Part shown: positions 47,171 through 64,000 of the stretch, piece by piece
Layout of the letters: each line of letters opens with the position of its first letter
Numbering within the stretch: position 1 is the first letter of the stretch
Assembly: GCA_025355645.1 (NCBI GenBank)
Contig: JANXZG010000072.1
Location: 1-64,000, forward strand
DNA from: Gammaproteobacteria bacterium
GTDB lineage: Bacteria > Pseudomonadota > Gammaproteobacteria > Steroidobacterales > Steroidobacteraceae
DNA: 64,000 nt
Direction of reading: 5' to 3'
The notes under the pieces: generated by a model
Database searches by the model: none
Seen by the model: the letters and a program-made list of their open reading frames with translations, nothing else
What the model was told of the DNA's origin: nothing
Made by a program: the position numbers and the translations under genes

Positions 47171-47173
47171 GAC

Positions 47174-48853
47174 ATGGCAACGCTAGCGCCGATCGAGGCC
47201 GTCAAGGCGCAGAGCCGCGGTTTGCGCGGCACGCTGGCCGACAGCCTGACAGATGCGCCGAGCGGATCATTGCGGGAGCATGACCAGCAGCTGCTGCGCC
47301 TGCATGGCAGCTACCAGCAGGATGACCGGGACGTTCGCGAGGAACGGCGCCTGCAGAAACTCGAACCGCAATGGCGTTTCATGGTGCGGGTGCGCCTGCC
47401 GGCTGGTGTGTGCACACCGGCGCAATGGCTGAGCCTGGATGAGCTTGCGACGGGGCTCGGCAATGCAAGCTTGCGGCTGACGACGCGCCAGACTTTCCAG
47501 TTCCACGGCATCATCAAGCATGACTTGAAACCGGCGATGCAGCGGATCAACGCAACACTGCTCGATACGATCGCGACCTGCGGTGATGTCAATCGCAACG
47601 TCATGGCAAGCTCGAATCCAATCGAGTCGCCCGCCCATGCCGAAGTCGCTCAGTGCGCGCGCCGGTTGTCCGAGCATTTCCTGCCGCATACCCGCGCCTA
47701 CCATGAGATCTGGCTGGATGGCGCGAAGCTCGACGGCAGCCCCGAGGTCGAGCCGATCTACGGCGCCAGCTACCTGCCGCGGAAGTTCAAGGCGGCGATT
47801 GCCTTGCCGCCGAGCAACGATGTTGATATTTTCACGCAGGACCTGGGCTTCATCGCGATCCTCGAGCGGGGTCGCCTGGCCGGGTTTAACCTGACCGTGG
47901 GCGGCGGTATGGGGACGACTCACGGGGATGCCGCGACGCATCCGCGCTTGGCGGAAGTCGCCGGTTTCCTGCCAGTCGAGGCGCTGCTGGAGGTGGCCGA
48001 GGCGGTCGTGACGACTCAACGGGACTTTGGCGATCGGACCAATCGTAAGCACGCGCGCCTGAAGTACACGATCGAGGAGCGGGGCCTCCCCTGGTTCATT
48101 GACGAGGTCGAGTATCGTGCTGGCATCAAGCTCGCGCCTGCGCGCGCATTCCACTTCGATGGCAATGGTGATCGTTTCGGTTGGTTAAGAGCGCTGGATG
48201 AGACTTGGCATCGCACGCTGCGCGTGCGGGCCGGGCGCATTGCGGATGTGCCGGGTGCGCCGCTGTTGACGGGCCTGCGCGAGATTGCGAGGATTCATCG
48301 CGGCGATTTTCGCCTGACGCCGAACCAGAATGTGACCATCGCTGGCGTGGCCATTGACGATCGACGGCGCATCGACTCCCTCATTGCGCATTTTGGACTG
48401 GACCTGGCGGAACGGGGGACGCCAGTGAGCCGTGATGCGCTCGCTTGCGTGGCGCTGCCGACATGCGCGCTTGCAATGGCGGAGGCGGAGCGTTATTTGC
48501 CCAAGCTGCTTACGCAGGTCGATGCGACCTTGACGCGTCATGGCCTGCAGGATGAGCCAATGGTTCTCAGAATCACCGGCTGCCCGAATGGTTGCGCGCG
48601 ACCCTATGTGGCGGAAGTTGCACTGGTGGGCAAAGCCCTCGGCCGCTACAACCTCCATATCGGCGGCGATGGGAGTGGTGCGCGCCTGAATGTGCTATAT
48701 CGCGAGAATATCGACGAGGCGGAATTCCTGCGGGAGTTTGACGCGCTGGTGGCTGCGTGGGGGGCGCAGCGCGCGGCCGGCGAGAGGTTCGGCGACTTCC
48801 TGTGGCGCACGCAACGCTTGCCCCTGCCGAGCGGCGCGCCGGGCGCGGCATAA
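47174..48853 (+). CDS. cysI: Sulfite reductase hemoprotein (beta) subunit
   Basis: A 559-residue assimilatory sulfite reductase that reduces sulfite to sulfide at siroheme coupled to a [4Fe-4S] cluster. The cluster cysteines are C425, C431 (CVALPTCALAMAEAE), C470 and C474 (TGCPNGCARPYVAE), matching the known CysI spacing. RLTTRQTFQFHG and DVNRNVMASSNP are further family motifs. The length is standard. It lies between cysJ and cysG with gaps of three bases and one base. Confidence 0.95.
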   Translation: MATLAPIEAVKAQSRGLRGTLADSLTDAPSGSLREHDQQLLRLHGSYQQDDRDVREERRLQKLEPQWRFMVRVRLPAGVCTPAQWLSLDELATGLGNASLRLTTRQTFQFHGIIKHDLKPAMQRINATLLDTIATCGDVNRNVMASSNPIESPAHAEVAQCARRLSEHFLPHTRAYHEIWLDGAKLDGSPEVEPIYGASYLPRKFKAAIALPPSNDVDIFTQDLGFIAILERGRLAGFNLTVGGGMGTTHGDAATHPRLAEVAGFLPVEALLEVAEAVVTTQRDFGDRTNRKHARLKYTIEERGLPWFIDEVEYRAGIKLAPARAFHFDGNGDRFGWLRALDETWHRTLRVRAGRIADVPGAPLLTGLREIARIHRGDFRLTPNQNVTIAGVAIDDRRRIDSLIAHFGLDLAERGTPVSRDALACVALPTCALAMAEAERYLPKLLTQVDATLTRHGLQDEPMVLRITGCPNGCARPYVAEVALVGKALGRYNLHIGGDGSGARLNVLYRENIDEAEFLREFDALVAAWGAQRAAGERFGDFLWRTQRLPLPSGAPGAA

Positions 48854-48854
48854 G

Positions 48855-50435
48855 ATGCGCTGGTTCCCGCTTTTCCTAGACCTTCGCGATCGCCTAATCG
48901 TCGTCATCGGTGGCGGCTGCGTCGCCGAGCGCAAGATCGACTTGCTATTGCAAAGCGGGTCGCGGCTTCTCGTGGTCGCCCCGCGGCTGACCCCGGCGCT
49001 GGCACGGCGCGTGGCGGCCGGCGAACTCGAGCATAGGTCACGTGATTTTGCGCCCGCGGACCTCGACGGGGCGCGCCTGGTCATTGCAGCGACCGATGCG
49101 CCGCTCGTCAATCGCGCTGTGTCCGTCGCCGCGGAGGCGCGTCATATCCTCGTCAATGTGGTCGATAATGCCGACTTGTCAAGCGGGGTCATGCCCGCGA
49201 TCGTGGACCGCTCGCCGCTGCTGATCGCGATCGGCACCGACGGGAGCGCCCCGGCGCTTGCGCGGCATGTGCGTGCACAGATTGAATGCCTCATCGATGA
49301 ATCCTTCGGGCGGCTGGCGGGCTTGCTGCAGCGCTGGCGGGCGCGTATCAGGCAAGGCGTGCCGGATTTGGCCACGCGGCGAGGCCTGTACCTGCGGCTG
49401 CTGCAGGGTCCGGTTGGCGACGCGGTGCGCGTGGCGCGCGATGCCGACGCCGATGCACTTGTTGAGCAGGCGATCAGCCGGGCACCGGGCGCCAATGCGG
49501 GGCTCGTGCAGATCGTGGGCGCAGGTCCTGGAGATCCAGGCCTCTTGACGCTGAATGCGCTGCGCGCCCTGCAGGGCGCGGATGTTGTGCTGCATGACCG
49601 GCTGGTCAGCAACGAGGTATTAAGGCTGGCGCGGCGGGACGCCGAGATGATTGATGTCGGCAAAACCTCTGGTGGCCGCAGTGGCAGCCAAACATGGATC
49701 CATGCCCTTATGTCCGAGCACGCCGCGCGCGGCCGCCGCGTCGTGCGCCTGAAGGGCGGTGATCCGTTCATCTTTGGCCGTGGCGGCGAGGAGATCGAAT
49801 TCCTGCGCTCCCGGGGGATCGCCTACGAGGTACTCCCAGGCATCACGGCGGCGCTGGCCTGCGCCGCTTACGCGGGCATTCCGCTGACCCATCGCAATCA
49901 CGCGGCAAGCCTGCGCGTGGTGACCGCCCATTGCCAGGATGCCATCGATGCGGTTGACTGGCAGGCGCTCGCCGGCAAGCGCGAGACGCTGGCGATTTAT
50001 ATGGCCGTCAAGTCCGTTGATCGCGTGCAGCGGGAACTGCTGCGGCACGGCCGATCGCCGGCGACGCCGATTGCCTTTGTGGAAAACGGCAGCCGCCCGG
50101 ACCAGCGCGTGATCATCGGTAAATTGGGCGAGGCCGCGATGCTCGGTGCATCAAGTCAGGTTCAGTCGCCCGCCGTGCTGATCGTCGGCGAGGTCGCAGC
50201 GCTTGGCGCGACGCTGCACTGGTATGGCGCTGCGCCCGTGACCAGCAATGCGGCTCAGCGCTTGTCGACGACGACCTGGCCGCCCTTCATGACCCATCGC
50301 ACCCGGCGCACCGCGCCGATATCCTTGAGAGGATCGCCATCAACCGCGACGAGGTCTGCAAAGGCGCCGATTGCCACGATGCCAAGTTCCTTTTCCTTGC
50401 CGAGCAGTTCCGCGCCTACTGTCGTCGCAGAGTGA
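48855..50435 (+). CDS. cysG: Siroheme synthase (multifunctional), with unusual C-terminal extension
   Basis: A 526-residue protein that makes siroheme for CysI. The N-terminal part is the precorrin-2 dehydrogenase/ferrochelatase (VVIGGGCVAERKIDLLL). The C-terminal part is uroporphyrinogen-III methyltransferase (VGAGPGDPGLLTLNALR, VVRLKGGDPFIFGRGGEE, LPGITAALACAAYAGIPLTH). The family normally ends shortly after EVAALGATLHWYGAAP (about 50240). Here no stop occurs until 50435, adding some 60 residues rich in Ser, Arg and Pro that are encoded antisense to the convergent amidohydrolase. The tail probably arose by loss of the original stop. ATG 48855 follows the cysI stop by one base; the frame upstream overlaps cysI and is ignored. 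Confidence 0.92.
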   Translation: MRWFPLFLDLRDRLIVVIGGGCVAERKIDLLLQSGSRLLVVAPRLTPALARRVAAGELEHRSRDFAPADLDGARLVIAATDAPLVNRAVSVAAEARHILVNVVDNADLSSGVMPAIVDRSPLLIAIGTDGSAPALARHVRAQIECLIDESFGRLAGLLQRWRARIRQGVPDLATRRGLYLRLLQGPVGDAVRVARDADADALVEQAISRAPGANAGLVQIVGAGPGDPGLLTLNALRALQGADVVLHDRLVSNEVLRLARRDAEMIDVGKTSGGRSGSQTWIHALMSEHAARGRRVVRLKGGDPFIFGRGGEEIEFLRSRGIAYEVLPGITAALACAAYAGIPLTHRNHAASLRVVTAHCQDAIDAVDWQALAGKRETLAIYMAVKSVDRVQRELLRHGRSPATPIAFVENGSRPDQRVIIGKLGEAAMLGASSQVQSPAVLIVGEVAALGATLHWYGAAPVTSNAAQRLSTTTWPPFMTHRTRRTAPISLRGSPSTATRSAKAPIATMPSSFSLPSSSAPTVVAE

Positions 50436-51565: not shown

Positions 51566-52951
51566 TCAGCTCACCGGCGCTGCGCCGCCTTCCGCCGTGC
51601 GGCGCGCGATAAAGGCGTTGAGTTCTTCGCTGATAGCTCGGTCGCGGACCGGAGCGACGTAGTCGCGCAGCAGGTCCTTCCAGACCCCATTGGCACGGAT
51701 CGTCGCGCTCTTCGCGCCCTCCGCGCTCCAGGTCGCAAAGCTGCGGCCATCGGAGATGATCGGGGTGTAGGGCGTATCGCCTGGCTGGAAGAGTTCGGCG
51801 AACATCTGCAGCATCTCGATGTCGAGGATGAATTTCTCGTAGCTCGTCGATAGCCCGCTTTCGAGCCACCCGGCCGCATGCAACATGAAATTGCAGCCGC
51901 CCATCAATGCGCCCCACAGGCTCATCTGCGATTCATAGGCGGCCTGTGCGTCCGGCACGTTCGATGCAGTCGCATTCGAGGAACGCCACGGTAAGCCCAG
52001 GTGGCGCGCCATCTGGCCTGCGCCAAATTGGGCTTTGACGTACTCCGGCGTGCCAAATGCAGGGGATCCGGATTTCATGTCGACATTCGAGGTGAAGCTT
52101 CCGTAGACAATCGGTGCCCCCGGACGTACGAGTTGCGCGAGCACCAGCCCTGCGAGAGCTTCGGCATGCGCGAGCGTCAACGCGCCGGCGATAGTGACCG
52201 GTGCCATCGCGCCGGCCAGTGTGAACGGCGTGATCATCAGCACTTGGCCCGCCGTGGCAAAGTCGATGATGCCATCCGCCATCGGCAGGTCAAGTTGCAG
52301 CGGGGAGTTCGTATTGATGATCGAATAAGTGCAGGGATAGTCGAGAAACTGCTTGGCGGTAATGCCATGCGCGATGCGCAGCGCTTCGAAGCAGTCGGCC
52401 ACCTGTCCCATGCCGCGGGAAAACGTGAAGGGGATCTTGTCAGTCAGCGCGAGCTGCGCGCGGATGACCTCCAGGTGACGCAGCGGCGGCGGGATGTCCT
52501 GTGGCTCGCACATGGACCCGAGCACCTGGATGACATCCAGGCTCTGGCACATCTTCATGCCATCACAAAAATCCGCGAGCGTGCCGGCGCGCCGGCCGCG
52601 CTCAATGTCCATGACATTAGGCGCTCCCGAACTCGGCGCAAACGCGATCGAGCGGCCGTGCAGGGGTACGTGGTGCGCGCCTTCAACGGAGTGCAGCGTG
52701 AATGAGCGCGGCGCGCTCGCGAGGCAGGTCGCGACAAGCGCGCGATCGATACGCACCATGTTAGATGCATCGTCCACATCCGCGCCGCCCGCCCCATATA
52801 GCCGGCGCGCCCGGGGCGAGAGAACCTTCATGCCCTGGCCCTCGAGAATGCCAAGCGCGCCATTGTGTAGGGCGGCAACCTGGTCCGTTGAAAAAACGCA
52901 CTGCGGCTCGAATGGATTTTCGAGTTGCCGGTACGGGTGCGATCGACTCAC
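51566..52951 (-). CDS. MttB-superfamily (trimethylamine/glycine betaine) methyltransferase
   Basis: This 461-residue protein matches the MttB family: AALHNGALGILEGQGMKVLSP at the N-terminus, MKMCQSLDVIQVLG, PFTLAGAMAPVTIAGAL, and PTI-like PYTPIISDGRSFATWS near the end. Pyrrolysine-containing MttB demethylates trimethylamine, whereas relatives without pyrrolysine, such as MtgB, use glycine betaine or other betaines. No in-frame UAG occurs here, so this is a non-pyrrolysine member. Those enzymes pass the methyl group to a corrinoid protein, and none is visible in the window. The start is GTG 52951, overlapping the upstream stop as GTGA. Confidence 0.85.
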   Translation of the reverse strand: MSRSHPYRQLENPFEPQCVFSTDQVAALHNGALGILEGQGMKVLSPRARRLYGAGGADVDDASNMVRIDRALVATCLASAPRSFTLHSVEGAHHVPLHGRSIAFAPSSGAPNVMDIERGRRAGTLADFCDGMKMCQSLDVIQVLGSMCEPQDIPPPLRHLEVIRAQLALTDKIPFTFSRGMGQVADCFEALRIAHGITAKQFLDYPCTYSIINTNSPLQLDLPMADGIIDFATAGQVLMITPFTLAGAMAPVTIAGALTLAHAEALAGLVLAQLVRPGAPIVYGSFTSNVDMKSGSPAFGTPEYVKAQFGAGQMARHLGLPWRSSNATASNVPDAQAAYESQMSLWGALMGGCNFMLHAAGWLESGLSTSYEKFILDIEMLQMFAELFQPGDTPYTPIISDGRSFATWSAEGAKSATIRANGVWKDLLRDYVAPVRDRAISEELNAFIARRTAEGGAAPVS

Positions 52952-55383
52952 GAGCGCATCCGCAGTCCCTGTGGATCGAAAGGAGGCTCGGCGATGATCC
53001 GGGCGGGTCGACGCTCGCCGAGAATTTCTATTTCGAATGCGCTCGGGGCGAGGTCCGCGGCGGCCGCGACCGGGACATAACCTTGCGCTAGGGACAGGCC
53101 GACGCTGTGGCCAAAGCCACCGGAAGTGACCCAGCCAATGACCTCGCCCTGGTGCCAGATCGGCTCGTCGCCCAGCACATCGGCATCGGTCGCATCGACT
53201 ACCATGCTGACCCGGCGCAGGCTGCCGCCCGATGCCTTTTCCTTGCGTGCCGCCTCGATGCCGATGAAGTCGCTCTTGGCAAGGTCGACAAAGCGATCAA
53301 GGCCCGCTTCAAACACACCGTAAATCGGGCGCAGCTCCCGGTACCAAGTCGGAAAATTCTTCTCCAGTCGCAGGCATAGCAGGGCGCGCATGCCAAAATT
53401 GCGGATGCCCTGGTCCTGGCCGGCTTCCATAATCCGGCCATAGAGGCGCCGCTGGTATTCCGGGGCGACCCAGATCTCGTAGCCCAGGTCACCGGTGTAG
53501 GTCACGCGATTGATCATCGCGGGGACGTTCGCGATGTCCATGGCGCGGTGGTCCATGAAGCGCAGCGCAGCCGTCGATACATCCTCGTCCGTCAGCCGTT
53601 CCAGCACCGTGCGCGCCTTCGGCCCCGCGATCGACACCCCCACGAGGCCCATGTCGAAGCGCCGGATCCGCACGGAGCCATCGGCCGGGAGCTGCGCTTC
53701 TAGCCAACGCATATGGTAGATCTGCGCCTGCGAGGAGCCCCACATCAGGAATCGATCCGCGCCGGCATTGGCGATCGTGAAGTCGCCGATCAGCTTTCCA
53801 AAGGTGTTCAGCATTGGCGTCAGGATCAGCCGGCCGGGCTTCGGCATGCGGTTGGTCATCAGCCGCGACAGGTACTTCTCGGCGCCCGCTCCTGCAATCT
53901 CGTACTTGGCAAAGTTTGCGATTTCGGTCACGCCAACGCCGTTGCGGACCGCAAGGCACTCGGCCTTGACGTGCGCAAAATCATTGGAGCGGTGGAAGGA
54001 GACGATGTCGCGCGGCTCGACCCCGGTGGGCGCAAACCACAACGGCGTCTCCAGGCCCCAGCTGTCTCCCATCACCGCGCCGTGCGCAAGCAGCAGCTCA
54101 TACAGCGGGGTCGTCTGCTGCGGACGCGCGGCTGGCAATTCCTCATTCGGAAAGCGGATGGAGAAACGGCGCGAATAGTTCTCGCGCACTTTTTCGTTTG
54201 TGTAGCTGCGCGTCGCCCATTCGCCAAAGCGCGCGACGTCCATCGCCCACACATCGAAACCCGGGTCGCCGTTAACCATCCACTGCGACAGCGCAAGTCC
54301 CACACCGCCGCCCTGGCTGAACCCGGCCATCACCGCGCAGGCGCACCAGAATCCAGGCAGCCCCTGCACCGGGCCCACCAGTGGATTGCCGTCAGGCGAG
54401 AAAGTGAAGGGTCCGTTGATGATGCGCCGGATGCCGGCCTTTTCCATGGCCGGGAAATGCCGGTAGCCGATCTCGAGCGACGGCAGGATGCGATCCAGGT
54501 CAGGCGGCAAGAGTTCGGTGCCGAAATCCCACGGCGTCTGGCGCGGCTGCCACGGCACGCAGGCTCTTTCATAGGTACCCAATACGATGCCGCTGCGCTC
54601 CTGGCGCATGTAGATCTCCGCCTTAAAGTCGATCGCATGCGGCAACTCATGGCCGCGTTCCTTGTTGAACGCAATCACCTCGGGCATGTCGTCGGTGACC
54701 AGGTACATATGCTCCATTGCGAGCACCGGCAGTTCGATGCCAACCATGCGGCCAACCTCGCGGGCCCACAGGCCGCCGCAATTCACGACGTGCTCGGCGT
54801 TGATCGTGCCCTTGTCCGTCGCCAGGTCCCAGGTACCTTCCGGGCGGCGCGAGATTGCGCTGACGCGCGTCTGCAGGTAAATCTCGGCCCCGCCAATGCG
54901 CGCCGACTTCGCGTAGGCATGGGTCGTGCCATACGGGTCAAGGTTGCCATCGGCCTTGTCTAGCATCGCGCCAACAAAATACTTATCCTCGATCAGTGGC
55001 AGCAGTTCGCGCGCTTCTTTGGCCGTGATCAGGTCGGTCTCGAGTCCGAGATAACGCGCGCGCGCGTGGGCCATCTTGAGCCATTCCATGCGCTCCGGGG
55101 TATCTGCAAGCAGTAGTCCGCCTGAGCGGTGCAGCCCACAAGACTGACCGGAGATCTTCTCGAGCTCATCGTAGAGGCCAATCGTATAACCCTGCAGCTT
55201 AGCCACGTTCGGGTCGCCATTGAGCGTGTGGAAGCCACCGGCGGCGTGCCAGGTCGAGCCCGAGGTTAGCTGATCGCGCTCGATCAGCACGACATCTTTC
55301 CAGCCTGCCTTCGTCAGGTGGTACAGCACACTGCAGCCGACCACCCCGCCGCCGATGACGGCGACCCGTGTATGTGTCTTCAT
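52948..55383 (-). CDS. Dimethylglycine dehydrogenase-like flavoprotein
   Basis: An 811-residue protein that probably oxidises an N-methyl group, passing it to tetrahydrofolate or releasing formaldehyde. An FAD domain begins with VAVIGGGVVGCSVLYHL, and SGSTWHAAG places H46 where dimethylglycine dehydrogenases attach FAD covalently. A central domain links it to a C-terminal aminomethyltransferase-like (GcvT) region with LGYEIWVAPEY, GMRALLCLRLEKN and GGSLRRVSMVV. Dimethylglycine, sarcosine or another N-methyl amino acid are candidate substrates. ATG 55383 overlaps the soxG stop by four bases (ATGA). Confidence 0.87.
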   Translation of the reverse strand: MKTHTRVAVIGGGVVGCSVLYHLTKAGWKDVVLIERDQLTSGSTWHAAGGFHTLNGDPNVAKLQGYTIGLYDELEKISGQSCGLHRSGGLLLADTPERMEWLKMAHARARYLGLETDLITAKEARELLPLIEDKYFVGAMLDKADGNLDPYGTTHAYAKSARIGGAEIYLQTRVSAISRRPEGTWDLATDKGTINAEHVVNCGGLWAREVGRMVGIELPVLAMEHMYLVTDDMPEVIAFNKERGHELPHAIDFKAEIYMRQERSGIVLGTYERACVPWQPRQTPWDFGTELLPPDLDRILPSLEIGYRHFPAMEKAGIRRIINGPFTFSPDGNPLVGPVQGLPGFWCACAVMAGFSQGGGVGLALSQWMVNGDPGFDVWAMDVARFGEWATRSYTNEKVRENYSRRFSIRFPNEELPAARPQQTTPLYELLLAHGAVMGDSWGLETPLWFAPTGVEPRDIVSFHRSNDFAHVKAECLAVRNGVGVTEIANFAKYEIAGAGAEKYLSRLMTNRMPKPGRLILTPMLNTFGKLIGDFTIANAGADRFLMWGSSQAQIYHMRWLEAQLPADGSVRIRRFDMGLVGVSIAGPKARTVLERLTDEDVSTAALRFMDHRAMDIANVPAMINRVTYTGDLGYEIWVAPEYQRRLYGRIMEAGQDQGIRNFGMRALLCLRLEKNFPTWYRELRPIYGVFEAGLDRFVDLAKSDFIGIEAARKEKASGGSLRRVSMVVDATDADVLGDEPIWHQGEVIGWVTSGGFGHSVGLSLAQGYVPVAAAADLAPSAFEIEILGERRPARIIAEPPFDPQGLRMRS

Positions 55384-55895
55384 GTTCCGGAAACTCCATA
55401 GGCTAGTGAGGCATCTTTCAGCCACTCGATCACCGAGGTGGCAAAAGTGCGCTGGACGAACAATTCATAGGCATCGGCGGCGACTCGCTCGAGGAACACG
55501 CCGGTGTGGTGCAGGCCGGTCTGCGCGCTTTGACCTACCGCAAACTGGCGCGGATGCAGATCAATGGCTATGCCCTTGGCGAGCACCTCGCGCGTATCGG
55601 AGCCCGCCAGGCGCAGGCGTACGCGCCCCGCCGACAGGCGCGTGATCGCACCGGCGGCAGGCGGCAGCAGCTCGGCAAAACCGCTCAGGTTCAAATCGTC
55701 CGCTGCGATCCACCAGTACTGGTCGCGCGTCAAGCGCACGAGCCGCGATGCGCCCTGAGTAATGCCGTGATATAGCTCGGCCGGCGGATCGGCGCCAAAG
55801 GAGTCTGCCAGGCAGCGCCCGAACTGCTCGCGATGCGCGGTAAATGCGGTCAGGTGCGCAAGGTGCCACCCGCGCAGCTCGATCATTTCAAACAC
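55380..55895 (-). CDS. soxG: Sarcosine oxidase gamma subunit
   Basis: This 171-residue protein is the GcvT-like small subunit of heterotetrameric sarcosine oxidase. Motifs include VRLTRDQYWWIAADD, LSAGRVRLRLAGSDTREVLA and KGIAIDLHPRQFAVGQSAQT, HHTGVFLER. The start is GTG 55895, overlapping soxA by eight bases; an ATG at 55886 is an alternative. Its stop overlaps the next gene's start (ATGA). The subunit structurally completes the complex. Confidence 0.85.
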   Translation of the reverse strand: MFEMIELRGWHLAHLTAFTAHREQFGRCLADSFGADPPAELYHGITQGASRLVRLTRDQYWWIAADDLNLSGFAELLPPAAGAITRLSAGRVRLRLAGSDTREVLAKGIAIDLHPRQFAVGQSAQTGLHHTGVFLERVAADAYELFVQRTFATSVIEWLKDASLAYGVSGT

Positions 55896-58866
55896 GCATT
55901 CGCTCCCCCTGCTCGTCGATGAACACGGGCGATACGATGCGGGCGCGCACTATCTCGTTCTTCAGCGGGAATGCGCAGATGATTTCCTCGTTCTGGTGCG
56001 CGAGCCCCCCTTGGTAAAGCCCGAGTGCGATGAACCTACCAAGTACGGTGGACCAGGTTACCGAGGTGATGTAGCCGCGGCCATGGCCGTGGATTGGATC
56101 GGCATTTGCAAAAAGGATCGCGCCGCCACGAAGTCGCGCGTCCGGTTCCAGGCCCTCGATCCCAACGAGACTCCAGCGCTGCGGGTCCTTGAGCTCGGAG
56201 CGCTCGCGCAGTTCGCGGCCAACGTAGACCTTGTCCCGTCCGGCCATGCGGCCAAGGCCGAGATCATCGAGCGTATTGCGGTGGTCGAGTTCGAGTCCCG
56301 CGACATGTCCCTTCTCGATGCGCAGGGACGCGAGGGCCTCGAGTCCGTAGGGCCGTATGCCTAGCTCTGCCCCGCGTGTTAGCAGCAGTTCCCATAGCCC
56401 GGTGCCGCGATCGGCCGGCACATACAGCTCAAATGCAAGTTCGCCCGAAAAGCTGAGACGCAGCACGCGCAGCGCCCCGCCCTCGTAGATGAGCTCGCGG
56501 CAACCCATGTGTGGCAAGGTGGCATCGGAAAAGTCATGGTCGGGCATGGCCAGCGCGAGCACGGCGCGTGCCTTCGGGCCGGCGACCGACATGCCGGCCC
56601 ACTCATCAGTGACCGAAAGGAATTGCACCTGCAGTTCCGGCCACGCGGTCTGGTGCAGGAACTCCAGATGCGACATGACTTCGCCCGCCTGTGCCGTGGT
56701 CGTCGTCAGGAAATAGCGGGTCTCGGAGAATCGCGCCGTCGTGCCGTCATCCAGCACTGTCGCATCGTCATTGAGCATGACCCCGTAACGGGCCTTGCCT
56801 ATGGGCAGTTTTGCGAATCCATTGACGTAAACGCGATTCAGGAATTCCGCGGCATCCGGTCCCTGCACATCGATCTTGCCGAGCGTGGAGATGTCCGAGA
56901 TGCCGACAGCGCTGCGCACCGCGTGCATTTCCTTGATATAGGCGCTTGCCACGGTATCGCCCGCCCAGCGGTAATACCACGCGCGCAGCCACGGACCGGC
57001 TTCGATAAACGCAGCGCCGTTGCTGGCGTGCCAGTCGTGTAACGGCGAGCGCCGGATCGGCCGAAAATGATGGCCGATGTTTCGTCCCACCAGCGCGCCG
57101 ATGGAGACCGGCGTGAACGGCGGGCGAAACGTCGTGGTGCCGGCCGCGGCAATCGCCTGTCCACGTAGTGTGGAGATCAGGCCAATGGCATTGATGTTGC
57201 TGGTCTTGCCCTGGTCGGTGCCCATGCCGAGCGTTGTGTAGCGCTTCAGGTGCTCGACCGATTCAAATCCCTCCTGCTGCGCATTGGTGACATCATCTGT
57301 AGTCACGTCCGACTGGAAGTCGACAAACGCCTTGCCACGCATCTTGCCGGCAGCGCCCCGCGCGATTTCCAGGTTATACGGCTCGTCCGGAAGCACCTGG
57401 ACGTGGTCGGGATCGGGCTCCGGCGCGCCTAAAGCGAAGCCCGCATGCCGGGCCGCCTGTGCACCGGCGAAGTTGCCCTCGAGTATGCCTTGAGCAAGAC
57501 CGAAGCTGCCCATCACCGCGCCAGCGCCGAAGTGTCCGGCCGCCAAGGCGCCGGGGACAAAGGAGTCGATCGCGGCGCGGTAGGTAGGCTTGATGCCCGT
57601 GTGGGAGGTCAGGTGCACCGTGCACGACCAGCCGCCCGACATGCACAGCAGGTCACAATCGATCGTCCGTTCGGCCCCGCCGGCGAGGGCAGCAAGTCGG
57701 GCGCCCTTTACCCGGCGACGACCGAATGCGCGCGTGACGACGCTGGCAAGTTCCACGGCGATGCCGCCCTGGCGCGCCAACTCGAGCAGGGGCGCCGCTA
57801 CTTCCGCGCGCTGATCCACGATCGTGACCGCAGCTCCACTGCGCGCGAGTTCCGCAGCACTGGACCAGGCACTATCATTGTTGGTTGCAACCACGATGCG
57901 CTGCCCGAGCGATACCGCGTAACGATTGAGGTAAGTTTGTGCGGCAGAGGCAAGCATCACACCCGGACGGTCGTTATCGCCGAACACCAGCGGCCGCTCG
58001 ATAGCGCCGGTGGCAAACACGATGGATTTCGCGCACAAGGTCGTGACTACTTCGCGGGCCTCGCCGCGGGCGCTCTGCGGCTGGCCCGGCGCGTATCGCG
58101 TCAGCAGGCCGACCATGTTGCCATCGTAGAGGCCGAAGGCAGTGGTGCGCGGCAGTACCCGTATGTTCGGGCAAGCCGCCACGGCGGCCACGGCGGCGCC
58201 GCGCCAGGTCTCGCAGCGATCCTTAAGATGCCTTGACAACAGCTGGCCTCCCAGCAGGCTGTCCTGTTCGACCAGAAGCACGCGCGCACCCGACCTGCCC
58301 GCGGCACTTGCTGCGGCAAGTCCGGCGGCGCCCGCGCCAATGACCAGGACATCGGCAAACTCATAGCGCGTCTCGTAGCGATCCGGATCCCGTTCGTGCA
58401 CGGCGCGCCCCAGGCCTGCGGCGCGGCGAATGAAGGGTTCGTAGAACATCCATGAACCACGGCGCGGTCCCATGAAAGTTTTGTAGTAAAAACCTGCGCC
58501 CAGCAGCGGCGCAAGCCAGGAGTTGATGGCCATCAAGTCAAAATCGACGGACGGCCCGCCGTTCTGGCGCCGCGCGCACAATCCATCGTGAAGCTCCGTC
58601 ATCGTGGCTGCAATATTCGGCGTGGTGCGGCCAGTCTCCCCAAGCGTGACAAGCCCATTGGGCTCCTCGCAGCCCGCGGCCACGAAGCCGCGTGGGCGGT
58701 GGTACTTGAAGCTGCGCCCAATCAGCGTGAGCCCGTTGGCGAGCAGCGCAGAGGCGAGCGTATCGCCAGCAAAGCCGGAGAAGGTGCGTCCCTCGAGCGT
58801 GAACGACAGTGGGCGATCGCGCGCGATGCGCCCGCCCTCGGCCACTCGATGCGGCCGCCTCGTCAT
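55888..58866 (-). CDS. soxA: Sarcosine oxidase alpha subunit
   Basis: A 992-residue subunit that binds NAD and, at its C-terminus, tetrahydrofolate. The N-terminal 100 residues have a ferredoxin-like fold (FTLEGRTFSGFAGDTLASAL, RSFKYHRPRGFVAAGCEEPN). A Rossmann domain begins ADVLVIGAGAAGLAAASAAG. A GcvT-like domain occupies the last 380 residues (DISTLGKIDVQGPDAAEFLN, GELAFELYVPADRG, GLEALASLRIEKGH). ATG 58866 overlaps the soxD stop (ATGA); the frame upstream lies in soxD and is ignored. The complex oxidises sarcosine to glycine, forming methylene-tetrahydrofolate and hydrogen peroxide. Confidence 0.95.
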   Translation of the reverse strand: MTRRPHRVAEGGRIARDRPLSFTLEGRTFSGFAGDTLASALLANGLTLIGRSFKYHRPRGFVAAGCEEPNGLVTLGETGRTTPNIAATMTELHDGLCARRQNGGPSVDFDLMAINSWLAPLLGAGFYYKTFMGPRRGSWMFYEPFIRRAAGLGRAVHERDPDRYETRYEFADVLVIGAGAAGLAAASAAGRSGARVLLVEQDSLLGGQLLSRHLKDRCETWRGAAVAAVAACPNIRVLPRTTAFGLYDGNMVGLLTRYAPGQPQSARGEAREVVTTLCAKSIVFATGAIERPLVFGDNDRPGVMLASAAQTYLNRYAVSLGQRIVVATNNDSAWSSAAELARSGAAVTIVDQRAEVAAPLLELARQGGIAVELASVVTRAFGRRRVKGARLAALAGGAERTIDCDLLCMSGGWSCTVHLTSHTGIKPTYRAAIDSFVPGALAAGHFGAGAVMGSFGLAQGILEGNFAGAQAARHAGFALGAPEPDPDHVQVLPDEPYNLEIARGAAGKMRGKAFVDFQSDVTTDDVTNAQQEGFESVEHLKRYTTLGMGTDQGKTSNINAIGLISTLRGQAIAAAGTTTFRPPFTPVSIGALVGRNIGHHFRPIRRSPLHDWHASNGAAFIEAGPWLRAWYYRWAGDTVASAYIKEMHAVRSAVGISDISTLGKIDVQGPDAAEFLNRVYVNGFAKLPIGKARYGVMLNDDATVLDDGTTARFSETRYFLTTTTAQAGEVMSHLEFLHQTAWPELQVQFLSVTDEWAGMSVAGPKARAVLALAMPDHDFSDATLPHMGCRELIYEGGALRVLRLSFSGELAFELYVPADRGTGLWELLLTRGAELGIRPYGLEALASLRIEKGHVAGLELDHRNTLDDLGLGRMAGRDKVYVGRELRERSELKDPQRWSLVGIEGLEPDARLRGGAILFANADPIHGHGRGYITSVTWSTVLGRFIALGLYQGGLAHQNEEIICAFPLKNEIVRARIVSPVFIDEQGERMRV

Positions 58867-59132
58867 GGCGGCGCCGCCTCGCTGGCGAGCCAGCTGCGAC
58901 CCGTCGTGTTCGTCGCGGTGTCGCGTTCGAGCACCAGCCATTGCCGGCATCCCAGCACATGCTGCCAGTACTCGCGGTGCGCGCCCTTGGGATTGTCAAA
59001 CAGGAACACGTGGTCGTGCCAGGCGCGCAGGTCCGCGCTACCGTGCCGCGGCCTGGACTTCGTTGCATCGCCGGCGTAGCGGAATTCGGTGTAGTGGCGC
59101 TCGCCGCAATTTGGGCAGACGATTTTCAGCAT
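58863..59132 (-). CDS. soxD: Sarcosine oxidase delta subunit
   Basis: The 89-residue zinc subunit of heterotetrameric sarcosine oxidase. Predicted zinc ligands are C6 and C9 (VCPNCGERHYTEF) and H58 and C62 (YWQHVLGCRQWLVLERDT), matching the family. Standard length. ATG 59132 follows the soxB stop by four bases, and its stop overlaps the soxA start. A longer open frame upstream runs through soxB and is not used. Confidence 0.93.
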   Translation of the reverse strand: MLKIVCPNCGERHYTEFRYAGDATKSRPRHGSADLRAWHDHVFLFDNPKGAHREYWQHVLGCRQWLVLERDTATNTTGRSWLASEAAPP

Positions 59133-59136
59133 GCGT

Positions 59137-60393
59137 TCATTGCCGGTAGGTCCATTGGCCGAGCCCGTATTCATCGTGGCCGTTGCCGCGCTCGAAACGG
59201 TCGAGCGCGAGATGGCGCACCAACGCGTGTTCCTCGCCGCGCGCAATCGTGTGCGCGAAGCACCAGCCGGTCGCAGGGGTTGCCTTGAACCCCTGGTAGC
59301 ACCAGCCGCCATTGAAATACAAATTGTCGCGCGGCGTGCGGCCGATAAAGGGGCTGCCGTCGGGCGTCATGTCCTGGATTCCCGCCCAGTGGCGCAGGAG
59401 CCTGAGCCTCGACATCGATGGAATCAACGCAACTGCACATTCTGCGACGGCCTGGATCTTGGGGAATTGGCCGCGCTGCGTATAGGAGTTGAAGCCGTCG
59501 ATGTGTCCGCCGAACACGAGGCCGCCCTTATCCGACTGGGAAATATAAAAGAGCTCCGCCCCGAAGGAGATCACATGATCCACGAATGGCTTGATAGGCT
59601 CGGTCACGAATGCCTGCAACAGGTGACTCTCGATCGGCAGCCGCAGGCCCGCCATCGCCGCGATATGCGAGGAGTGACCGGCAACGGAAATCGCGGTGCG
59701 CTCCGCATGGATGTCGCCGCGGCTGGTGCGCACGCCGGTAATGCGGTTGCCCACCGAGATAAATCCGGTGACCTCGCAATGCTCGACGATGTCGACGCCG
59801 AGCCGGTCAGCGGCGCGCGCATAGCCCCACGCGACCGCATCGTGGCGGGCCGTGCCGGCGCGGCGCTGCAGCAGGCCGCCATGTATCGGGAAGCGCGTGC
59901 CGGCGGAGTAATCAAGGTAGGGCAGCAGCCGCATGATGTCCGCACGATCCAGCAGCTCGGCGTCGATGCCATTCAGGCGCATGATATTGCCCTTGCGCGA
60001 CAGCACGTCGAGCTGCGATGGCCCGTGGGCGAGCACGATCTGGCCGCGCTGCGAGAGCATCACGTTGTAGTTGAGCGCGTGCGACAGCCCCTCCCATAGC
60101 TTGAGCGAGTACTCGAAGAACTGGGTATTGCCGTCCATCTGGTAGTTTGAACGCACCAGCGTCGTATTGCGCCCCACGTTTCCGGAACCAATATAGCCGC
60201 GCTCGATGACCGCGACTTTAGTGACACCATGGTTGGCCGCGAGGTAATAGGCGGTCGCAAGGCCATGGCCGCCGCCGCCGATAACGATGACATCGTAGGT
60301 CGGCTTCGGTTCGGCCTTGCGCCAGACGCGCGGCCACGGCGCGCCGGTGGCGGCATGGCGCGCCAGCGCGAGCGCGGAATAGCGTTCAGTCAT
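59137..60393 (-). CDS. soxB: Sarcosine oxidase beta subunit
   Basis: The 418-residue catalytic subunit that binds FAD and covalent FMN. The FAD site is DVIVIGGGGHGLATAYYLA, and H184 in TARHDAVAWGYARA is the expected FMN attachment histidine. The C-terminal GWCYQGFKATPATGWCFAH also fits. The gene order soxB-soxD-soxA-soxG is that of classical sarcosine oxidase operons, although glyA and folate genes often found with them are absent here. It starts at ATG 60393 with only a weak upstream ribosome site. Confidence 0.95.
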   Translation of the reverse strand: MTERYSALALARHAATGAPWPRVWRKAEPKPTYDVIVIGGGGHGLATAYYLAANHGVTKVAVIERGYIGSGNVGRNTTLVRSNYQMDGNTQFFEYSLKLWEGLSHALNYNVMLSQRGQIVLAHGPSQLDVLSRKGNIMRLNGIDAELLDRADIMRLLPYLDYSAGTRFPIHGGLLQRRAGTARHDAVAWGYARAADRLGVDIVEHCEVTGFISVGNRITGVRTSRGDIHAERTAISVAGHSSHIAAMAGLRLPIESHLLQAFVTEPIKPFVDHVISFGAELFYISQSDKGGLVFGGHIDGFNSYTQRGQFPKIQAVAECAVALIPSMSRLRLLRHWAGIQDMTPDGSPFIGRTPRDNLYFNGGWCYQGFKATPATGWCFAHTIARGEEHALVRHLALDRFERGNGHDEYGLGQWTYRQ

Positions 60394-60464: not shown

Positions 60465-61619
60465 CTACAGCGTGCGGGATTGTGCGTCAATCGCATCAGC
60501 CAGGCGCCGGTTGCAGTAACGATCGAAATCCAGCACCGGGCCTTCAAAATCAGCCGGTGCCAGTGGGCCGCGTTGATGGTGAGCAGAGGCCATCCCCCGC
60601 ATCAGGCTCACCAGCACCGCCTTGTCCTCGGCCATGGTCGCGATAAAAAGCTGGACCGCGCGATCGATATCTATCTGCGCCCCATCATCCCCATGGAAGA
60701 TCAGCCCCATCTTGGCCCGCACCCTATCGACTGACTCGGGTTGCAGGCAGATGAACGAGCTGTAGTCTCCGCCGCAACCCGAGACGAGCGCGGGAGGAAT
60801 CGCGAACATCACGCAGTTGTCCGCTTCGGCCGCGGCCAGGTCGGGGTGGCCCTTGCTGGAGCGGGCAAGGTTCGGCGAGTAGCCTGCGTTGTAGCCGAAA
60901 TAGGCATCGCCCGCCTCGAAGCGCGTACACAAACGCGTCGGGTTCACGGCGTGTAACGTCGTTCGGTGTAGGGGCGAGAGGTGATACCCCTCCATGAAAT
61001 CGAGGAAACATTTCCAGTTCGTATTCCATACTTCCGTGACGAGATATTTGAGCGACATTCCTTCCATGTGGTAGTTACGCAGCCGCCCTGCCAGCGGTTT
61101 CAGGCGCGGCGCCAGTGGCTGTGGGTCCCTGGCGAGCGAGGTGAACAAGAAACCCTGCCACTCCTCGCAGGCAAATTCGGGCAGGCGGCAGGCGCTGCGG
61201 TTGAAAGCTTTATGCGCTTCGAGGCGCGGCGCCGCTTTGAACCTGCCTTTGAGGTCGTAGCTCCAATGGTGGTACGGGCATATCAGCAGCGGGGCGTTGC
61301 CGGATCCGCTCACCAGGACCGTGCCGCGATGCCGGCACACATTGGATAGCACATGCGCCTGGCCCTCGGCGTCGCGCACGGCGACCAGCGGCTCATCACA
61401 AAGCTGGAAGGCCGTATAGTCGCCCGGTCGCAAAATCTCCTCAGCGCGTCCGAGGCAGATCCACTCCTGCCCGAACAGGTGCCGGGACTCAAGTGCCAGC
61501 AGCGCAGGGTCGGTGTAGAAAGTGGCCGGCATGGTGAAGGCCGAATCAAAATCCAGCTCCTCGCTGCGCCTTAGCGCGAGATGCAAGTCGGCCAGCGAAT
61601 TGTGTGCGGTCAAGGTCAA
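60465..61619 (-). CDS. Rieske non-heme iron oxygenase, alpha subunit
   Basis: A 384-residue oxygenase resembling GbcA, CntA and choline-monooxygenase-type enzymes, which demethylate or hydroxylate quaternary amines. The Rieske cluster ligands are C95, H97 (VCRHRG), C114 and H117 (ICPYHHW). The mononuclear iron site includes H213 and H218 (NWKCFLDFMEGYHLSPLH). I chose TTG 61619, which overlaps the LysR stop as TTGA and has AAAGGG upstream; the frame further up lies within the LysR gene. A reductase partner (GbcB/CntB-like) is not seen in the window and would be needed for electrons. The substrate is probably a betaine (inference from neighbours). Confidence 0.88.
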   Translation of the reverse strand: MTLTAHNSLADLHLALRRSEELDFDSAFTMPATFYTDPALLALESRHLFGQEWICLGRAEEILRPGDYTAFQLCDEPLVAVRDAEGQAHVLSNVCRHRGTVLVSGSGNAPLLICPYHHWSYDLKGRFKAAPRLEAHKAFNRSACRLPEFACEEWQGFLFTSLARDPQPLAPRLKPLAGRLRNYHMEGMSLKYLVTEVWNTNWKCFLDFMEGYHLSPLHRTTLHAVNPTRLCTRFEAGDAYFGYNAGYSPNLARSSKGHPDLAAAEADNCVMFAIPPALVSGCGGDYSSFICLQPESVDRVRAKMGLIFHGDDGAQIDIDRAVQLFIATMAEDKAVLVSLMRGMASAHHQRGPLAPADFEGPVLDFDRYCNRRLADAIDAQSRTL

Positions 61620-62563
61620 GCGCGCCCTTTTGCGCTGCGCAGGGCAGGCCGCTGCTGCGTTCCGGGCAGCGAGGTCAGCCAGTTCAGGAAATTCTGCAGC
61701 AGCGAATTGCGTGCACGCGATCGGGAATGGACCGCGCAGTATTGGTACTGAAGCGGAATCTCGCACTCGAACGGCCTCACGAGCTCGCCGCTGGCCAATT
61801 CATCCTCGGCGAACATCGACTGTCCGAGCGCGACGCCCTCGCTGGAGCGGGCCAGGTCGATGGCGAGACTCGACATGTCGACCTTATGTCCAAGTTCCAC
61901 CCGCGGCTCGCGCGTGATCCCGGACCGCGCAAACCACGCGCTCCAGGTTGGATAGGATGATAGTCCGGCGCGCCAGGCTATATGGATCAGGTCCTCATCG
62001 CGCAGTGCCATCGGCGAGCCTGCTACTAGACGACGGCTCTTGAGAAATTTCGGCGTGCACATCGGGGTCGCCTGGTCCTGCAGGAACGGCACCGTGACGA
62101 ATTCCGGATATAAGTGTTCTCCATAGCAGATGCGCACATCGACCGGATTTCGATAGAAATCGATGGGGTCATCCTCGATACGCAGATCGAGGCGCACATC
62201 CGGATATAGCCGCAGGTAATCGGCCAGGTGCCGATTGAGCCAGCGCACCCCGATCGACGGGATCACGCTGATCGCAAGGCCAGAGGGGACCGCGCCGCCC
62301 AGCAGCCGTTCAGTCATTGCGGCCAGCTCGTCCATCATTTCGGTGCTTGCTGATTTGACCGCCAGGCCCACATCGGTCAGGAACAACTGATTGTTGTGCC
62401 TTGTGAACAGCGCCTTGCCAAGGAAGTCCTCAAGCTTCGCGATCTGCTGGGATACCGCGCCGCGGGTCACGTTGAGCTCGCGCGCGGCGGTTGCCACCGC
62501 ACCCAGGCGCGCAGTCGCCTCGAACGCTTTGATTGCATTCAGTGGCGGTAGTCTGCGGTGCAT
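61616..62563 (-). CDS. LysR-family transcriptional regulator (GcvA-like)
   Basis: A 315-residue regulator. Residues 1-60 hold the winged helix-turn-helix (PPLNAIKAFEATARLGAVAT, ELNVTRGAVSQQIAKLEDFL). The C-terminal part is the effector-binding domain, with GLAISVIPSIGVRWLNRHL, RICYGEHLYPEFV and EGVALGQSMFAEDEL. The style is that of GcvA, the glycine-responsive regulator, fitting a pathway that ends in glycine. ATG 62563 follows AGGACAAGG. It is first in the minus-strand unit and lies about 200 bases from the divergent oxygenase, the usual arrangement for control of both directions. Confidence 0.93.
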   Translation of the reverse strand: MHRRLPPLNAIKAFEATARLGAVATAARELNVTRGAVSQQIAKLEDFLGKALFTRHNNQLFLTDVGLAVKSASTEMMDELAAMTERLLGGAVPSGLAISVIPSIGVRWLNRHLADYLRLYPDVRLDLRIEDDPIDFYRNPVDVRICYGEHLYPEFVTVPFLQDQATPMCTPKFLKSRRLVAGSPMALRDEDLIHIAWRAGLSSYPTWSAWFARSGITREPRVELGHKVDMSSLAIDLARSSEGVALGQSMFAEDELASGELVRPFECEIPLQYQYCAVHSRSRARNSLLQNFLNWLTSLPGTQQRPALRSAKGRA

Positions 62564-62767
62564 CCTTGTCCTGTTCAAAAAAATTGGTGGTAGGTTTTCT
62601 ACGCGCTTCTGTTCGCAAGATCAACGGTTCGGTCTCATCCTAGCGCAGGCTGGCACGGAAGGCGGTATACTGCGTTAGGTTTTCTGACGGAAGGCGCATT
62701 TTTATTCGCCGCCGGCGCAAATTACGCAGTGCTACGATCGGGCCGAATCTAGCTTTGGAGTGGCGCA
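62564..62767. promoter_or_regulatory. Shared regulatory region of the LysR unit and the divergent oxygenase
   Basis: About 200 bases without coding content lie between the LysR regulator and the oxygenase gene. A TATACT near 62667 is a possible plus-strand -10. A GGAG precedes the TTG start at 62768. The LysR binding site was not pinned down. Confidence 0.4.
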
Positions 62768-63556
62768 TTGCGCGACATCCTTGATCTTGACCGTTACCCA
62801 CTTGACCGCGCCCTATCGCGCGAATATTCGGCGTTGATCCTGCAGTGCCAGGCGGAACTCGATGCCACCGGCATGTTCAACCTGCATGGGTTCGTGCACC
62901 AAGCCGCTCTCGTGCGCGCCGCCGCCGAGATCCTGCCACTTAGCGAGCGCGAGTCTTACACTCACCAGCGTCGGCACAATGTCTATTTTTCCGATCAGGT
63001 GCCGGGGCTCGGTGGCGAGCATCCTGCGCTGCGCCTATTCGATACGGTTCATCACACCCTGTGTAACGACCAGCTCGCCGGCACGGTCGTACGCAAAATT
63101 TACGAGTGGCCACCGCTGGTAGCATTCCTTGCGCATGTCATGCAAAAAAGCGCGCTGTATGTCATGAAGGATCCGCTCGCCCGGCTGAACGTCATGGATT
63201 ACCGTCCGGGTGAGGCACTGAACTGGCACTTCGATCGCAGCCAGTTCACGACGACGCTACTGATCCAGGCGGCGGAACAGGGCGGGGAATTCGAATATCG
63301 GAGCGAGCTTCGCAGCGACACCGATCCCAACTATGTGGGGGTGGGGCGCTTGTTGGGCGGCGAGGACCAGGACATTCATGTCAATGCATTGGCGGGTGGC
63401 ACGCTGAATGTCTTCAAGGGCCGCAACACACTGCATCGCATTTCACCAGTCCGCGGCACGCGCAAGCGTTTGGTTGCGGTGTTTTCGTATTACGATCGGC
63501 CGGACGTAATGTTCAGCCGCGAAGAGCGCGTCGGTTTTTTTGGGCGGGATGCCTGA
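62768..63556 (+). CDS. 2-Oxoglutarate/Fe(II)-dependent oxygenase-like protein
   Basis: This 262-residue protein has a double-stranded beta-helix fold by motif. The metal facial triad is H154-x-D156 (LNWHFDRSQFTTTLLIQ) and H223 (FKGRNTLHRISPVRG), with R234 as likely 2-oxoglutarate ligand. The aspartate is kept, so hydroxylation rather than halogenation is expected. The sequence resembles members of the amino-acid-hydroxylase/halogenase group. It starts at TTG 62768 with GGAG upstream. The following cupin gene starts one base after its stop. Its substrate may be the amine handled by the neighbouring genes, but this is inferred. Confidence 0.8.
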   Translation: MRDILDLDRYPLDRALSREYSALILQCQAELDATGMFNLHGFVHQAALVRAAAEILPLSERESYTHQRRHNVYFSDQVPGLGGEHPALRLFDTVHHTLCNDQLAGTVVRKIYEWPPLVAFLAHVMQKSALYVMKDPLARLNVMDYRPGEALNWHFDRSQFTTTLLIQAAEQGGEFEYRSELRSDTDPNYVGVGRLLGGEDQDIHVNALAGGTLNVFKGRNTLHRISPVRGTRKRLVAVFSYYDRPDVMFSREERVGFFGRDA

Positions 63557-63557
63557 C

Positions 63558-64000
63558 ATGAAAAATTATGCGCTCGACGAATTCATCGCTGACTGCCGCC
63601 GGATATCTGCCCACTGCGCTGAACCGGCGGACTGTGTTCTCGCGATACTGCCGCTGATGGAGCGGTTGCTATTGGGCGATCGTTCGTTTATCCGCCCGGA
63701 ACACCTGGTCAGCAATTCCGACCACTACAGCCGCAATGCTATCTACATCTCACCGGACGGGAACCTGTCGTTGTTCGTCCTGGTGTGGCTGCCGGGGCAG
63801 TGGACCCCGGTGCATGATCACGGCAGCTGGGGGGTCGTCGGCGTGCTGCAGGGGATGCTTGAAGAGCGCAGCTTCATGGCGGTCGACGGGGCGATCCTGG
63901 CGGACGATGGGATACGCCTGAGGCGCGGTGGTGTGTTTGTGCTGCCGGAAAAATCCCTGTCAAGCTTTGTGCCAAATCCGGATCATATCCATATGACTGG
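63558..64000 (+). CDS. Cysteine-dioxygenase-like cupin, partial at right edge
   Basis: A 147-codon open frame runs off the end of the window. Residues 82-96 read WTPVHDHGSWGVVGV, the iron-binding signature of cysteine and 3-mercaptopropionate dioxygenases (H86, H88), and PNPDHIHMTG near the edge holds the third His (H145 or H143). Such enzymes add oxygen to thiols. The N-terminal 80 residues fit too (FVLVWLPGQ). ATG 63558 starts one base after the previous stop, so the two form an operon. Confidence 0.87.
   Translation, partial: MKNYALDEFIADCRRISAHCAEPADCVLAILPLMERLLLGDRSFIRPEHLVSNSDHYSRNAIYISPDGNLSLFVLVWLPGQWTPVHDHGSWGVVGVLQGMLEERSFMAVDGAILADDGIRLRRGGVFVLPEKSLSSFVPNPDHIHMT

Follow-up and report, generated by a model that had tools for sequence, protein, structure and literature searches.

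At the right-hand end of the stretch of DNA analysed here, a gene for a HalD-like Fe(II)/2-oxoglutarate oxygenase is followed at once by a gene for a cupin resembling cysteine dioxygenases, and both read away from a LysR regulator that stands at the head of a set of demethylation genes. This arrangement raises the question whether the two genes form a functional pair, and what each of them might do beside the enzymes of betaine breakdown. The window (the whole stretch that was analysed, 64,000 bases) corresponds to bases 1-64000 of contig C69, which counts 143,426 bases in a genome of 3.88 Mb. The explanation that we favor, with moderate confidence, is that the oxygenase is an HxD-type 2-oxoglutarate-dependent hydroxylase of a LysR-controlled betaine demethylation pathway, and that the cupin is an Arg-type thiol dioxygenase but not its conserved partner. 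The features concerned are the following.

62768..63556, + strand: HalD-like HxD-type Fe(II)/2-oxoglutarate oxygenase, 262 aa, TTG start (Pfam PF23169, 50.9 bits; residues by alignment)
63558..64000 in the window, gene end at contig base 64127, + strand: Arg-type thiol-dioxygenase-like cupin, 189 aa (homology; fold of orthologue L106)
62591..62601, + strand: operator-like repeat, copy 1, TAGGTTTTCTA (comparison of regions and genome pattern search)
62676..62686, + strand: operator-like repeat, copy 2, TAGGTTTTCTG, within TTAG-N5-CTGA (comparison of regions, shuffles and genome pattern search)
61616..62563, - strand: LysR regulator, with GcvA as best NCBIfam subfamily (227.7 bits, below the cut-off of 288; ATG 62563, alternative TTG 62578)
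60465..61619, - strand: Rieske oxygenase alpha subunit, with GbcA as best NCBIfam model (128.6 bits, below the cut-off of 670; start TTG 61619 or 61613)
59137..60393, - strand: sarcosine oxidase beta-like protein, SoxB (TIGR01373, 631.6 bits, above cut-off)
58863..59132, - strand: sarcosine oxidase delta-like protein, SoxD (named by eye)
55888..58950, - strand: sarcosine oxidase alpha-like ORF, SoxA (TIGR01372, 1202.5 bits, above cut-off)
55380..55895, - strand: sarcosine oxidase gamma-like protein, SoxG (Pfam SoxG above cut-off, TIGR01375 below)
52948..55425, - strand: dimethylglycine-dehydrogenase-like FAD/GcvT protein (Pfam domains; 76-84% identical matches near HalD in 7/34 loci)
51566..52951, - strand: MTTB-family methyltransferase 1 (Pfam)

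The ORF coordinates agree with the sequence-only reading that the oxygenase and cupin genes are one base apart and face away from LysR. The cupin ATG at 63558 lies one base past the HalD stop, an alternative ATG at 63549 would overlap HalD by 8 bases, and the cupin is probably co-transcribed with the HalD-like gene here. The TTG start of the latter has GGAG upstream, and close orthologues share the N-terminus M-x-D/E-x-L-D-L-x-x-Y-P-L. LysR is divergent from the HalD-like gene, with a gap of 204 bases (ATG 62563) or 189 bases (TTG 62578), and its stop overlaps the Rieske start (TTG 61619) or abuts it (TTG 61613). The order leftward from LysR is Rieske, SoxB, SoxD, SoxA, SoxG, the dimethylglycine-dehydrogenase-like gene and MTTB. 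The Rieske protein reads CFLDFMEGYH where that of Mesorhizobium reads CLIENFMEGYH, and has one residue less immediately ahead of the metal-binding stretch. Further left, 45377-50435 holds a gene for a CysJ-like flavoprotein, recognised from its Pfam domains, and then two ORFs that by eye resemble CysI and CysG, so that a sulfite reduction set lies about 13 kb from the cupin.

To the right, the cupin stop overlaps the start of a GNAT gene, after which the + strand carries NYN, amidohydrolase, second MTTB, OPT transporter, amine oxidase, cytochrome-like ORF (by eye) and NCS1 permease genes. Membership of these downstream genes in an unrelated pathway was to count against linking the pair to the demethylation operon, and past 64000 the outcome is divided: the GNAT and NYN genes are indeed unrelated, whereas the second MTTB gene, on the same strand as the cupin (L002:7109-8662, contig 67109-68662), points the other way. 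In a genome of the same genus (G002, locus L084), an MTTB gene lies 2.7 kb from HalD, and its product is 70% identical over 145 residues to this second MTTB.

The HalD-like ORF passes the Pfam HalD model (cut-off 26 bits), and a profile of 24 relatives matched among solved structures HalB (E 1.6e-14), HalD (2e-7), BesD (2.1e-6) and a lysine hydroxylase (8.1e-6). On these similarities, the enzyme is assigned to an uncharacterised clade of the HalD/BesD family. Relatives were gathered in two sets: 34 close ones, which are all matches of at least 50% identity (51.5-67%, own genome excluded) from the relatives, phylum, two order and plasmid scans, and 43 distant ones (30-39%), which are part of those found, as seven from one order scan, weak ones and all but 2 plasmid ones were left out. 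In the alignment H154, D156, H223 and R234 are kept in 34/34 close and 43/43 distant relatives, and the motif of the window protein is H154-F-D156, i.e. HxD. In Fe(II)/2-oxoglutarate halogenases Gly or Ala replaces the carboxylate of HxD/E, and Gly occupies that position in the BesD, HalB and HalD rows of the profile alignment. A halogenase can thus be discarded, D156 being present and HxD invariant in all 77 relatives. With HxD...H and the Arg kept, H154/D156/H223 should be the metal triad and R234 the 2-oxoglutarate arginine expected of a hydroxylase, and the enzyme should therefore hydroxylate and not halogenate.

In the close clade A138, N141, L151, N152 and R157 are found in 34/34 members; R157 is kept in 1/43 distant relatives. 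The lysine contacts named for BesD in the part of the source consulted (PMC13244439) are E123, D143, H137 and R77; these four could be placed, by alignment only, and correspond to A138, R157, L151 and T93 of the window protein. Lysine is therefore disfavoured as substrate, since all four contacts placed in the alignment are replaced, two further ones not being placed. A single-sequence structure model of the hydroxylase reached a pLDDT of 35 and was unusable. The genome carries a second HalD-like gene on contig C1 (7861-8628, L086), 38% identical and divergent from an adjoining MTTB gene; the search match contains one TAG.

That the cupin is of thiol-dioxygenase type, as the sequence-only reading proposed, is supported at the level of sequence and predicted fold. 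The part inside the window reaches 24.1 bits with Pfam CDO_I (cut-off 23), and the full protein matches solved thiol dioxygenases (best E 2.6e-11). By alignment, and numbering from ATG 63549, R62 supplies the arginine, and H89, H91, H148, H163 and Y165 the three His and the His-Tyr pair by which thiol dioxygenases (CDO/MDO/MSDO) are recognised. An Arg at the position of CDO Arg60 defines Arg-type thiol dioxygenases according to the part of the source consulted (PMC8050391), and by this definition R62 makes the cupin Arg-type, YxRN being present in 77/77 orthologous loci among the matches listed. A Gln-type 3-mercaptopropionate dioxygenase is out, since R62 stands where Gln is required. The ortholog scan gave at least 80 loci, from which the weak L182-L184 were dropped, leaving 77; among the matches listed, Rhodospirillales-like, Burkholderiales and Pseudomonas entries, judged by record title, make up most of these. 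A tree of 42 rows places the window cupin with L105, L106 and L109 (support 100/96). A model of orthologue L106 (pLDDT 92.4) has a cupin fold and matches thiol dioxygenases with Z 18.7-21.3 overall (3-mercaptopropionate dioxygenases about 21, cysteine dioxygenases up to 20, mercaptosuccinate dioxygenase 18.7) and ergothioneine dioxygenase (8qfl-8qfr) with Z 15-17. In the profile search the E values were 3.5e-21 for mercaptopropionate dioxygenase, 4e-12 for mercaptosuccinate dioxygenase and 0.015 for ergothioneine dioxygenase. We propose that, as an Arg-type thiol dioxygenase, the cupin would turn a small carboxylated thiol into its sulfinate.

The view of the two genes as a functional pair is not supported by the comparison of neighbourhoods. 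HalD was a neighbour of cupin orthologues in 0/77 loci (among the matches listed, up to 8 kb on each side), and the cupin a neighbour of HalD relatives in 0/77 loci (34 close and 43 distant); among the loci examined the two are adjacent in the window only, and the cupin is thus rejected as a conserved partner of the hydroxylase. Co-occurrence shows no clear enrichment either, a close HalD (56-57%) being found in 2/50 cupin genomes (50 of the 77) versus 7/398 genomes of the phylum sample (at least 50% identity, own genome not counted). A constant cupin neighbour was sought among the 77 loci from the matches listed and none was found, the commonest being peroxiredoxin-like (by eye) in 10. The cupin is a known kind of protein in a position seen only here so far, and is apparently a stand-alone thiol dioxygenase whose gene ended up behind that of the hydroxylase.

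The HalD-like gene itself has recurrent neighbours. At thresholds that were chosen once these data had already been inspected, a similar LysR gene is near HalD in 20/34 close loci; in 19 of them the matched stretches of LysR and HalD are separated by 80-130 bases (14 divergent, 5 in the same direction), and the twentieth is a Mesorhizobium operon in which genes intervene. At least one demethylation gene lies within about 10 kb of HalD in 11/34 close loci (dimethylglycine dehydrogenase in 7, SoxA in 7, SoxB in 6, MTTB in 6 and Rieske in 3), the other 23 having none at these thresholds; a few genera account for many of the loci, and some contigs are only 3-6 kb long. Cupin, GNAT and NYN neighbours number 0 in the 34. 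The 43 distant loci gave MTTB 3, NCS1 1, LysR 0 and 0 for the other tested genes, and in the 77 control cupin loci (among the matches listed) LysR and demethylation genes were both 0 at the thresholds; below them, two controls have a 35% dimethylglycine-dehydrogenase-like match and four a 24-32% LysR match. The link is found again in the family to which the window belongs, in alphaproteobacteria and on one plasmid, that of Mesorhizobium sp. WSM1497, where MTTB - Ldh - HalD (60%) - Rieske (65% to that of the window) is divergent from LysR. A later alphaproteobacterial scan added 8 new HalD loci, one of which is the same record as L102; the seven kept (one only 43% identical) have 0 demethylation genes at the thresholds, one of them containing a 44% dimethylglycine-dehydrogenase-like piece. 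Two further close loci from cupin genomes have MTTB matches (L312 39%, L313 28%), and pooling all of these (34 close, the seven, L312 and L313) gives 12/43 with a demethylation gene near HalD.

Other neighbours were also recorded. Genes for amino-acid-type periplasmic binding proteins adjoin HalD at L102:12825-13667 (SBP_bac_3) and L229:8912-9796 (by eye), a hint of an amino-acid-like substrate. In one alphaproteobacterial genus (L095, L096 and L248) a peptide-type transporter and two genes of the enolase superfamily follow HalD; for one of the two the family was confirmed with Pfam in L095, the other was assigned by eye. An M24 gene is near HalD in 13/79 HalD loci (L235, L237, L238, L246, L312 and 8 distant loci) versus 0/77 cupin controls among the matches listed, and among enzyme genes this DddP-like one may be the steadiest companion of HalD across the wider family. 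We do not claim a DMSP lyase: DddP is the best match, yet the three genes tested reach 308-376 bits where the cut-off is 600.

The intergenic region shared by LysR and HalD provides a second line of evidence. Twenty-one HalD-adjoining regions with approximate ends were compared, namely that of the window and those of 20 of the 34 close loci, some LysR-bearing loci (L243, L247) being left out and L101 being represented by its LysR-MTTB region. In alpha- and gammaproteobacteria alike these regions share the repeat TTAG-N5-CTAA with core AGKTTTTCT. The exact core is present in 9/21 regions, with 10 occurrences in 2,320 intergenic bases versus 3 in the remainder of 383,169. Allowing up to one mismatch, the repeat was observed in 11/21 regions versus 0.66 expected from Markov shuffles, an enrichment which is partly circular, as the consensus was read from the same sequences and four regions come from one genus. 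Searching the own genome for TAGGTTTTCTR gave two occurrences, at 62591 and 62676, both in the LysR-HalD region; the reversed control pattern gave 4. We infer that LysR binds this repeat as a putative operator. The linkage to LysR and demethylation genes in other genomes, together with the repeat, thus supports the earlier suggestion that the HalD-like gene belongs to the LysR regulon, and the hydroxylase shows a link to betaine demethylation that recurs in both its regulatory and its genomic setting.

In the pathway that we favor, the HalD-like hydroxylase would act in the LysR-controlled removal of methyl groups from an amino-acid-like betaine. Hydroxylation would most likely take place at a C-H bond, either of an N-methyl group or of a carbon close to the ammonium; removal of the one-carbon units would then fall to the Rieske, MTTB, dimethylglycine-dehydrogenase and SoxBDAG enzymes.

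The same counts bear on two other explanations of the hydroxylase. It could itself be an oxidative N-demethylase, either doubling the Rieske step or taking its place: its gene is found among demethylation genes, and since a Rieske like that of the window is near HalD in only 3/34 loci, it may stand in for the Rieske enzyme elsewhere. We consider this rather unlikely, as both HalD and Rieske are carried by the window and by Mesorhizobium, and the HalD-family relatives with solved structures are called lysine halogenases and hydroxylases. Those enzymes act on side-chain carbons. It is likewise doubtful that HalD and LysR constitute a free-standing amino-acid hydroxylation unit to which the Sox and dimethylglycine dehydrogenase genes are incidental neighbours. 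The greater frequency of LysR linkage (20/34) than of demethylation linkage (11/34) and the lack of the latter in the seven later loci would suit such a unit, but the 0/77 demethylation genes in the control loci and the recurrence of the link across lineages and on a plasmid argue against it.

A further explanation would have hydroxylase and cupin work as a true pair on a betaine that contains sulfur, ergothioneine for instance: the cupin would oxidise the sulfur to leave hercynine, from which histidine would be set free by the demethylation enzymes. The ergothioneine dioxygenase 8qfp has the fold of the cupin (Z 17), and some HalD loci are suggestive. In genome G988 a close HalD (57%) lies between HutI- and M24-like genes, near HutG-, HutU- and HutH-like genes (by eye) and MTTB, and the genome also has, on another contig, an orthologue of the window cupin (L125). 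As for distant relatives, L259 has HutI-, HutG- and HutH-like matches near, L087 (37%) is amid ErtD and ErtE genes above cut-off, with a lyase matching hutH below cut-off, and L257 (34%) adjoins an EgtD-like gene below the EgtD family cut-off. Neighbours of histidine or ergothioneine type thus occur in 4/79 HalD loci, each of which counts itself since the probes were taken from those loci; the 77 cupin controls (among the matches listed) gave HutH 0, EgtD 0 and HutG 1. However, the search of the own genome gave no ErtD above cut-off, the weak matches reaching E 6e-6 at best, and nothing for EgtD, and Hut genes were looked for in vain in the window and along the contig to 140 kb. Moreover, the profile of the cupin is far nearer to mercaptopropionate and mercaptosuccinate dioxygenases than to ergothioneine dioxygenase, its adjacency to HalD was seen, among the loci examined, in the window alone, and no 2-oxoglutarate oxygenase was found around ErtD homologues (60-64% identical) in the incomplete gene tables of 5 plasmids inspected of 42 with a match. 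We therefore judge this pair very unlikely. A scheme in which a thiol-bearing amino-acid betaine (e.g. ergothioneine) is degraded by the cupin removing sulfur as sulfinate and by HalD with Rieske/MTTB/DMGDH/Sox stripping the methyls, one LysR driving both operons, appears similarly improbable. The histidine/ergothioneine link is a lead for assays and not a finding.

Enzymes of HalD/BesD type are known mainly from antibiotic and natural-product biosynthesis, and a catabolic role would be added to this family by an HxD clade that is linked to betaine demethylation and has a LysR regulator of its own. The linkage also provides a short list of directly testable substrates, the amino-acid betaines, histidine betaine included. 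The titles and abstract openings searched describe neither a LysR/HalD/demethylation cluster or HalD-cupin pairing, nor the breakdown of a thiol-bearing amino-acid betaine by a cupin, a HalD-type hydroxylase and Rieske/MTTB/DMGDH/Sox enzymes.

Compared with known systems, the locus resembles the glycine betaine route GbcA - DMGDH - SoxBDAG in its SoxA and SoxB, both above NCBIfam cut-offs, and in its dimethylglycine-dehydrogenase-like and Rieske genes, but the Rieske protein is far under the cut-off of GbcA NF058607 (128.6 versus 670) and MTTB and HalD-like genes are added. The ergothioneine utilisation cluster (ErtD, ErtE) is met around the distant HalD relative L087, whereas the window genome is without ErtD above cut-off. 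The cupin shares with 8vni, 6xb9, 4tlf and cysteine dioxygenase the fold, the three His, the His-Tyr pair and the Arg of the Arg-type enzymes, and its C-terminal GR...YD..AGT stretch aligns with mercaptosuccinate dioxygenase 8vni; it differs from them in forming its own clade with NPDHIHxTGVP, and in its SHY motif Thr replaces the Ser of three compared orthologues. Finally, the oxygenase is kin by profile to the halogenases BesD, HalB and HalD and to the lysine hydroxylase 7jsd, with which it shares the aligned HxD; in contrast to the halogenases it lacks their Gly and the four BesD lysine contacts, and it occurs with betaine-demethylation genes.
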